The translations under genes and the position numbers were made by a program. Under the pieces are notes generated by a model that saw only the letters and a program-made list of their open reading frames with translations, did not search any database and had not been told where the DNA came from. Shown here piece after piece: positions 2,270 through 6,400 of a stretch of 38,320 nt of DNA. Every line of letters begins with the position of its first letter. Positions within the stretch are counted from its first letter, which is position 1. Origin of the DNA: a virus; IMG/VR virus record IMGVR_UViG_3300032304_000709, positions 1-38,320 of that record; one strand, 5' to 3'.

Positions 2270-2515
2270 ATGGCAAGCAAGAAGAAACTTAATGAAGTTG
2301 TTGGTGGTCGTTTCACTCAAGTGGACGGTGAATGGTTGGTGGCTATGCCAATGTCGGAGAAGCCATTGGAGGCTGGTACGGTAATTATGGTTACTGTGAA
2401 GTCGGGTAAGCAAGTGCCGTTCATGGTTGCTAGTGAGGGTGCTGATAGCACAATTTTCGCCATTCTTGCACAGACTCGTGAGTTTGTGTACAATGGTGCT
2501 CGTACCGACCGCTGA
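2270..2515 (+). CDS. Hypothetical 81-residue early protein
   Basis: This small soluble protein begins MASKKKLNEVVGGRFTQVDG and is predicted mostly beta (GRFTQVDGEWLVAMPM, TVIMVTVKSGKQVPFMV). It shows no motif I recognise. It is preceded by a Shine-Dalgarno hairpin and two copies of the GTACGGC element, and followed directly by a hammerhead ribozyme whose cleavage would give its mRNA a defined 3' end 47 bases after the stop. That placement suggests the gene is expressed strongly and separately from what follows. Confidence 0.65.
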   Translation: MASKKKLNEVVGGRFTQVDGEWLVAMPMSEKPLEAGTVIMVTVKSGKQVPFMVASEGADSTIFAILAQTREFVYNGARTDR

Positions 2516-2525
2516 TTAGGTTGCA

Positions 2526-2591
2526 GGACGAAACAATAGGTGGTTTCCCCCCACCTATTGTCCACGGATAGTTGTCCGTGCTGATGAGTCC
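2526..2591 (+). ncRNA. Type II hammerhead ribozyme
   Basis: All conserved elements are present in permuted (open stem II) order. Stem II 5' strand GGAC 2526-2529; GAAA 2530-2533; stem III CAATAGGTGG 2534-2543, loop 2544-2550, CCACCTATTG 2551-2560, extended by the A15.1-U16.1 pair (2533/2561). Cleavage triplet GTC 2560-2562. Stem I CACGGA 2563-2568, loop TAGTTG, TCCGTG 2575-2580; CTGATGA 2581-2587; stem II 3' strand GTCC 2588-2591. The predicted cut is between 2562 and 2563. The upstream product would end in the stem III hairpin and the downstream product would begin with the stem I hairpin, both of which could slow exonucleases. It sits between the genes at 2270 and 2618. Self-cleavage is inferred from the perfect core. 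Confidence 0.9.
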
Positions 2592-2600
2592 AGTTTGACT

Positions 2601-2616
2601 ATTGCTGGGAGGCAAT
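2601..2616 (+). promoter_or_regulatory. Shine-Dalgarno hairpin B (before 2618)
   Basis: ATTGC (2601-2605), loop TGGGAG, GCAAT (2612-2616): a perfect 5-bp stem with the ribosome-binding core in the loop. The ATG is at 2618. It lies 10 bases after the hammerhead, so the cleaved downstream mRNA would have a leader made of the stem I hairpin plus this hairpin. Confidence 0.75.
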
Positions 2617-2617
2617 T

Positions 2618-2764
2618 ATGAGTAGTAATGCGAAGTTGGCTGTAAAGTTACAGCCTAAGGGTATCTATTGTTGCGATAAGTGCAACAAGCAGGTTCAGTT
2701 GTTTATTAGGGTTGCTGAGGTTGTTTGTAATCAGCATGGACAAATGCGAAAGGCAGGCAAGTAA
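2618..2764 (+). CDS. 48-residue Cys-containing protein (possible zinc ribbon)
   Basis: The sequence contains IYCCDKCNKQVQLF and VVCNQHGQMRKAGK. The CxxC knuckle at residues 21-24 (with an extra Cys at 20) and the later CxxH pair are spaced like a minimal zinc-binding finger. No larger family is recognised. It starts from a TGGGAG-loop hairpin immediately downstream of the hammerhead, and its stop overlaps the next ATG (TAATG). It may be a small nucleic-acid-binding protein. Confidence 0.65.
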   Translation: MSSNAKLAVKLQPKGIYCCDKCNKQVQLFIRVAEVVCNQHGQMRKAGK

Positions 2765-3245: not shown

Positions 3246-3269
3246 CCAACTGGCAATTCCGCCAGTTGG
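3246..3269 (+). promoter_or_regulatory. Leader hairpin (P1) before 3296
   Basis: CCAACTGGC (3246-3254), loop AATTCC, GCCAGTTGG (3261-3269): a perfect 9-bp stem. It is followed by CTAGATA and then the Shine-Dalgarno hairpin. The bases before it (GCAGGAC at 3228-3234 and GTC at 3244-3246) resemble pieces of the hammerhead leader at 2523-2562, but no ribozyme core remains. Confidence 0.65.
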
Positions 3270-3759: not shown

Positions 3760-3786
3760 TACTATGTTAATACTATGCGTGTAGGT

Positions 3787-3801
3787 GTACGGCAGTGTCA
3801 A
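3787..3801 (+). repeat. GTACGGC..TGTCAA element, copy 3
   Basis: GTACGGCAGTGTCAA, preceded by CGTGTAGGT. It lies 10 bases upstream of a leader hairpin and downstream of a possible -10 sequence (TACTAT at 3773-3778). The position matches copies 2 and 4, which also precede structured leaders. Confidence 0.55.
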
Positions 3802-3811
3802 CTAAAGATGT

Positions 3812-5159: not shown

Positions 5160-5202
5160 GTGTCGGTGCTTTGCACCTATACTTATTCCCAGCCGTGTGG
5201 GT

Positions 5203-5217
5203 GTACGGCGCTGTCAA
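5203..5217 (+). repeat. GTACGGC..TGTCAA element, copy 4
   Basis: GTACGGCGCTGTCAA, preceded by CGTGTGGGT, lies 10 bases before a leader hairpin in the space between the ATPase gene and its partner. A TATACT sequence about 25 bases upstream is a possible -10 box. A small GGTGC-TTT-GCACC hairpin (5165-5177) directly follows the ATPase stop. Confidence 0.55.
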
Positions 5218-5227
5218 AATAGAGGTT

Positions 5228-5253
5228 GCCGACTGGTGATTTTGCCAGTCGGC
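5228..5253 (+). promoter_or_regulatory. Leader hairpin (P1) before 5276
   Basis: GCCGACTGG (5228-5236), 8-base loop TGATTTTG, CCAGTCGGC (5245-5253): a perfect 9-bp stem, followed by TGAATA and the Shine-Dalgarno hairpin. The arrangement is the same as at 3246 and 3812 with different stem bases. Confidence 0.65.
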
Positions 5254-5258
5254 TGAAT

Positions 5259-6115: not shown

Positions 6116-6148
6116 GCACAAGCGGTGCCTACGCCGTCATAAAGTGGG

Positions 6149-6181
6149 GCGGGGGCTGGACAATAAAACTCCAGCCTCCGC
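6149..6181 (+). terminator. Strong stem-loop after the gene at 5276
   Basis: GCGGGGGCTGGA (6149-6160), 9-base loop, TCCAGCCTCCGC (6170-6181): 12 pairs with one G-U. It starts 33 bases after the stop and about 20 bases after a weak version of the GTACGGC element (CTACGCCGTCATAAAG, 6129-6144). No T-run follows. It may protect an mRNA end or act as the first hairpin of the next leader, as at 3246, 3812 and 5228. Confidence 0.45.
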
Positions 6182-6223: not shown

Positions 6224-6400
6224 ATGGAATATGAATTCAGAGCAGTAGTAATGTTGTCGGAGGAAACCTCATTGGGTGACTACGACAATTTGGATATGCT
6301 AGTGTCGGCTTTGCGTGACGCTGGTATCATAGTAGAATACGCCTGTCTAGGTTTAGCAGGTGAAATGTCAGCAGAAATCTTTAACACGGAGGTATTGTAA
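6224..6400 (+). CDS. Hypothetical 58-residue acidic protein
   Basis: It begins MEYEFRAVVMLSEETSLGDY and continues with an alternating helix-strand pattern (NLDMLVSALRDAGIIVEYAC). It is acidic with no recognised motif. The stop overlaps the next ATG (TAATG), and GGAGG near the end of this gene serves the next. It may be a small partner of the DUF3846 protein encoded next, by position only. Confidence 0.6.
   Translation: MEYEFRAVVMLSEETSLGDYDNLDMLVSALRDAGIIVEYACLGLAGEMSAEIFNTEVL

Follow-up and report, generated by a model that had tools for sequence, protein, structure and literature searches.

What occupies the gap between two small genes of an uncultured water phage, and what would it do to the transcript that carries them? 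The gap lies in the window, by which we mean the whole stretch of DNA analysed here, an IMG/VR record (IMGVR_UViG_3300032304_000709) of 38,320 bases. The record carries an exact 123-base direct terminal repeat, overlooked in the preliminary description, and is therefore a complete genome. Its genes include those for a terminase, an SU10-type major capsid protein, a DnaB-like helicase, a TOTE-type primase, RusA and a PD-(D/E)XK nuclease, and the replication-type genes in the rightward block suggest that the operon concerned is an early one. A nucleotide search of the annotated phage collection returned no relative of this phage; the nearest named record by protein search was MW202803.1 ('Podoviridae sp.', Manatee Spring), with 43% identity in the helicase and 51% in the terminase. 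The gene upstream of the gap (2270-2515, plus strand) encodes 81 amino acids without a Pfam or PHROG match, and a protein scan with it gave no confirmed relative. Downstream lies a gene (2618-2764, plus strand) for a Cys/His-rich protein of 48 amino acids, the orthologue of which is also found downstream in relatives.

Judged by sequence, and with descriptor, fold and covariance model in agreement, positions 2525-2592 of the plus strand are a type II hammerhead ribozyme, whose cleavage is predicted. The letters of 2525-2592 run A GGAC GAAA CAATAGGTGG TTTCCCC CCACCTATTG TC CACGGA TAGTTG TCCGTG CTGATGA GTCC A, with the predicted cut between TC and CACGGA. The 5' strand of stem II (GGAC, 2526-2529) forms four pairs with its 3' strand (GUCC, 2588-2591), and it is this open stem that makes the permutation type II. 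It is followed by the core box GAAA (2530-2533; G12, A13, A14 and A15.1), which is kept in an alignment of 30 hammerheads, and by stem III (2533-2561), in which 2533-2543 pair with 2551-2561 (11 pairs) around the loop 2544-2550. Cleavage would fall after C17 of the UH site (U2561-C2562), between 2562 and 2563, as hammerhead anatomy predicts; position 17 is C in 249 of 251 type II hammerheads. Stem I (2563-2580) consists of six pairs (2563-2568 with 2575-2580) plus U2569.G2574 at the ends of the loop 2569-2574, and the second core box, CUGAUGA (2581-2587; C3 to A9), fits the CUGANGA consensus. The core is thus complete, and of the three helices around it stems I and III are closed while stem II is open. 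The preliminary description had reported a type II hammerhead here, and a re-reading of the sequence bears out the coordinates, the stem counts and the cut site that it gave; the class assignment is backed by the core, by covariation among relatives and by an independent covariance model. Absent from it were the conserved A on each side of stem II (A2525 and A2592) and the U...G form of loop I.

A descriptor scan covering three permutations on both strands gave 2525-2592 as the sole strong match, with 22 pairs counting U.G, compared with a maximum of 18 pairs for any type and 17 for type II among 13,737 Markov-shuffled control windows. The minimum free energy fold of 2520-2600 (-30.2 kcal/mol, z = -4.4) holds all three hammerhead helices; in a longer fold (2480-2660), a competing minimum free energy structure disrupts stem II. 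We then trained a covariance model on 30 type II hammerheads, leaving the window out. In the underlying alignment 96.5% of cells are paired, covariation is 0.73 against 0.16 when shuffled, and 13 of 16 pairs show double changes. This model found 2525-2592 at 54.1 bits (E = 2.1e-13) and no other match in the window. A scan with the Rfam type II model, a check proposed in the preliminary description, gave no match in the window, either at the gathering score or at E <= 10. However, among 50 comparable type II hammerheads with a perfect core, from ten other phage loci, RF02276 reports two and misses 48, so that its silence on the window carries little weight; no more than a small fraction of the type II hammerheads of phages is detected by it, and a match to this model does not define the class. 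That silence is the sole point in favour of a chance match to the descriptor, a vanishingly unlikely explanation which is already refuted statistically, since none of the 13,737 shuffled windows reaches the score of the window and the covariance-model E-value stands at 2e-13.

Similar elements are numerous in phages. One strict pattern matched more than 119 stretches in IMG/VR among the matches listed, compared with about one expected by chance, an estimate from the length of the pattern and an assumed collection size; the same pattern matched 20 stretches in bacterial and archaeal genomes totalling 257 Gb. Among pattern hits selected without regard to stems I and III, and thus unbiased with respect to them, 152 of 163 form both stems, as opposed to 0.7% of shuffles. 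Of these 163 hits, 153 have an A before stem II and 125 have one after it, and loop I mostly begins with U and ends with G; the conserved U..G of the loop and the flanking A residues may form a non-canonical contact. Watson-Crick pairing of loop I with the 3' tail, a pseudoknot described as common though not universal in type II hammerheads, is possible in the window (2569-2574 with 2596-2601, six pairs including two G.U), and as a general feature it finds no support over 251 elements (3.66 versus 3.72 with shuffled tails). The nearest named record, MW202803.1 (locus L278), also carries a type II hammerhead, at 1948-2005 (44 bits), after a coding sequence ending at 1926. The annotated start of a GenBank coding sequence in that record (1985-2233) lies inside the hammerhead, and the in-frame ATG at 2030 is a likelier start.

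The placement of these elements is tight. In the fetched loci, which gave a set of 251 distinct type II hammerheads, the element starts at a median of 2 nt past the upstream stop codon (10 nt in the window), and the distance from the cut to the next start codon bearing a Shine-Dalgarno (SD) sequence has a median of 55 nt (interquartile range 49-60; 55 in the window). A strict stop-ribozyme-start arrangement was found for 125 of the 251; random places show it in 1.2% of cases, and the opposite strand in 4 of 251. In most of the 251 a stop codon overlaps or adjoins stem II, and it often provides the conserved A. Arrays of 7-11 type II hammerheads between consecutive genes were seen in four loci (L099, L085, L096 and L107), with up to 13 in a looser scan.

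The same junction could be followed in related phages. In three loci (L044, L282 and L283) the element is flanked by the same two genes as in the window, the homologues of the 81-residue upstream gene being identified by position and tblastn. Core and stem I are identical to those of the window, whereas stem III has an entirely different sequence and another length, yet remains paired. Between L282 and L283 there is one change in the 58-nt element, as opposed to about 7-9% in the flanks. Hammerheads, one to four of them at several junctions, occur in the early region of 20 of the 59 distinct covered relatives; because only these 20 have any, the ribozyme appears to be dispensable or replaceable. 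Where the orthologous junction has no hammerhead it is still occupied, by a tRNA-like structure in one locus (L211) and by a second structured element, here called element X, in six. It therefore seems that selection maintains transcript processing at this junction, and that one device can stand in for another. Our searches of the literature found no report of such a swap of devices at orthologous junctions.

The tRNA-like structure of L211 (segment 7172-7232) has a 7-bp acceptor, a 12-nt middle with UGGU and a T-arm with UUCGAUU. Altogether six such structures were found (L211:7178, L164:4219, L183:3298, L197:1320 and L151:2538 (+), and L062:1216 in minus-strand coordinates), each with a middle too short for an anticodon arm and each with UGGU, against a chance expectation in the same loci of 0.79 structures, or 0.06 with UGGU. 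In L164, L197 and L211, for which stop and start could both be called, the structure lies 13-27 nt past the stop codon and about 41-49 nt before the start codon, a geometry shared with the hammerheads. In L151 it lies 6 nt past the stop, with no start called, and in L183 it lies 48 nt before the start, with no stop called; the layout in L062 is similar as judged by eye. We regard these minimal tRNA-like structures as candidate substrates or baits for RNase P. Further mini-tRNA-like structures, with UCUGGUGACU and GGUUCRAUUCC, were noted in loci L324-L431, including three copies on the minus strand of L424, and some of them sit 3' of a glutamine-II riboswitch. A pattern scan gave 44 short examples, two of which are called by ARAGORN, and the tight junctions are not present in all; no Rfam family was reported over the examples in the loci checked. 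The scan thus points to a broader class of these RNAs among phages.

Element X lies at L141:3209-3318, L148:3364-3474, L202:4194-4302, L205:3387-3494, L206:369-477 and L210:8244-8352. It reads, in order, ACGGUUGGUUGAGG, a covarying helix of 13 pairs, YCUGAUU, a hairpin and GAUA, and the hairpin loop ACCGU would pair with the leading ACGGU to form a pseudoknot. In an alignment of the six sequences that includes this structure and the SD hairpin behind it, 100% of cells are paired and 11 pairs show double changes; the pseudoknot pairs are invariant in the six, and covariation therefore cannot speak to them. Element X is thus probably a conserved, pseudoknotted RNA. It gave no match to Rfam, and possibly represents a new self-cleaving ribozyme or a nuclease site. 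Additional pattern matches, considered as more distant copies, were rejected as chance.

Directly behind the ribozyme, the start of the downstream gene is preceded by a hairpin (2601-2616, plus strand; AUUGC-UGGGAG-GCAAU) that presents the SD sequence in its loop. It is one of six in the genome (2251-2268, 2601-2616, 3277-3294, 3844-3861, 5259-5274 and 6204-6219), each at a gene start with the SD in the loop of C-UGGGAG-G, and their stems of 5-6 bp differ in sequence yet pair. The probability of six such hairpins arising by chance, given 10 UGGGAG sites, is about 4e-10, and in relatives hairpins of this kind are several times as frequent as in shuffled sequences. As ideas for their role, they might bind a repressor, the loop being CsrA-like with GGA at positions 3-5, or might enhance translation; no CsrA gene was present among the proteins scanned. 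Strong simple hairpins lie just 5' of three other SD hairpins, at 3246-3269, 5229-5254 and 6148-6180, in the place that stem I of the hammerhead occupies before the gene at 2618. A degenerate hammerhead was sought before the gene at 6400, where relatives have one; it is absent, and a plain strong hairpin is found upstream instead. A 38-nt repeat with the core GTACGGCNSTGTCAA occurs in four copies (2047-2084, 2152-2189, 3774-3811 and 5190-5227), which sit upstream of the genes at 2270, 3864 and about 5276, with none within 2515-2618; these repeats are candidate phage promoters or operators.

Building on the anatomy, covariation, junction placement, orthologous conservation and replacement by other structured RNAs observed in these genomes, we consider it likely, with some confidence, that the hammerhead cuts a polycistronic phage transcript between 2562 and 2563 and so separates two genes. 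The transcript would cut itself co-transcriptionally, parting the gene at 2270-2515 from the gene at 2618-2764 and those after it. Hammerhead cleavage leaves a 2',3'-cyclic phosphate and a 5'-OH. On the upstream mRNA the new 3' end would accordingly be the stem III hairpin of 11 bp, carrying a 2',3'-cyclic phosphate. The downstream mRNA would open with a 5'-OH on the stem I hairpin, after which comes a 55-nt leader that displays the SD sequence in a hairpin loop. Since both new ends would be protected by hairpins, neither a host nuclease nor a second promoter would be needed to hold the two mRNAs at different levels. Cleavage, end chemistry, the separation of the transcripts and the effects on stability and expression are what we infer from the observed features. 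That the job of the gap is cutting is also pointed to by the other structured RNAs found in the same gap of relatives. Against this reading count the presence of hammerheads in only 20 of the 59 covered relatives, the lack of support for the loop I-tail pseudoknot and the competing structure of the longer fold.

Operon punctuation, as opposed to a relic of a mobile element, was already the reading of the preliminary description. It gains support from the single copy and its orientation on the gene strand, and from a tight stop/start geometry common to hundreds of other phage hammerheads. It is also supported by the three relatives that keep the element at the orthologous junction, and by those that have different structured elements there. 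A relic or passenger, or a ribozyme that has decayed and no longer has a role, could explain the patchy distribution among relatives (20 of 59), but the core is intact, the element is single with no repeat unit around it, the change in stem III at the orthologous site is compensatory, the placement between stop and start is precise, and no integrase or transposase was noted nearby in the open reading frames examined. We therefore regard this explanation as very improbable. A circular RNA excised between two ribozymes does not apply, with one copy in the window.

Two further readings accept an active ribozyme and differ on its purpose. The hammerhead might insulate or regulate translation of the downstream gene, as a natural counterpart of RiboJ, with upstream separation as a by-product. 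The constant spacing between cut and start codon (median 55, interquartile range 49-60) and the SD hairpin directly behind the ribozyme favour this; the upstream stop codon, however, is adjoined equally tightly (median 2 nt), and SD hairpins also precede five genes without a hammerhead, which makes insulation as the main role rather unlikely in our view. Alternatively, translation might gate cleavage. A terminating ribosome would cover stem II and GAAA, and the cut would thus signal that the upstream gene is no longer translated. Stop codons on or beside stem II in most of the 251 elements, often supplying the conserved A, fit such gating, but a compact phage genome would place the element there anyway and the gap in the window is 10 nt; we hold this reading to be improbable. 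A broader form of operon punctuation is quite possible, and we put it forward tentatively: this phage group may run an interchangeable 'cut and cap' system, in which one gene junction holds a hammerhead in some phages, a tRNA mimic serving as RNase P bait in another and element X in others, mostly followed by an SD hairpin.

Cutting at gene junctions has precedents. In phage T7, RNase III processing sites lie between the early genes. There, too, a polycistronic phage transcript is cut at gene junctions and hairpin ends are left; in T7 a host protein cuts, whereas in the window the RNA would cut itself. Type II hammerheads flanking single genes or short blocks in phage-type regions were described by Perreault et al. 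(2011; PMC3088659), who proposed that they divide phage transcripts into mRNAs the length of an operon or a gene, and who found cleavage of three arrays in vitro and of one in E. coli. Both the kind of element and the punctuation idea were therefore already known. The window element shares permutation, core, cut site and context with that set (PMC3088659; RF02276), and differs from it in being a single copy in an uncultured phage, with an unsupported loop I-tail pseudoknot and no RF02276 match. RiboJ, a hammerhead with a 23-nt hairpin that normalises 5'-UTRs (PMC7536230), is alike in that a hammerhead trims the 5' leader and is followed by a hairpin and then the ribosome binding site. The likeness in the window is one of anatomy only (stem I, tail, SD hairpin at 2601-2616 and ATG at 2618); RiboJ is engineered and placed after promoters, whereas the window element stands between genes and its hairpin loop holds the SD. 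Theta ribozymes of gut phages (Caudoviricetes) are small, self-cleaving and process phage transcripts, but have an HDV-like fold, often lie beside tRNAs and belong to another ribozyme class (PMC10879173).

The role of hammerheads in phages has been a question since 2011. Their placement in 251 examples, together with the swap of devices at the same junction, turns operon punctuation into a testable rule, and inspecting what occupies the same junction in relatives offers a route to new processing elements.
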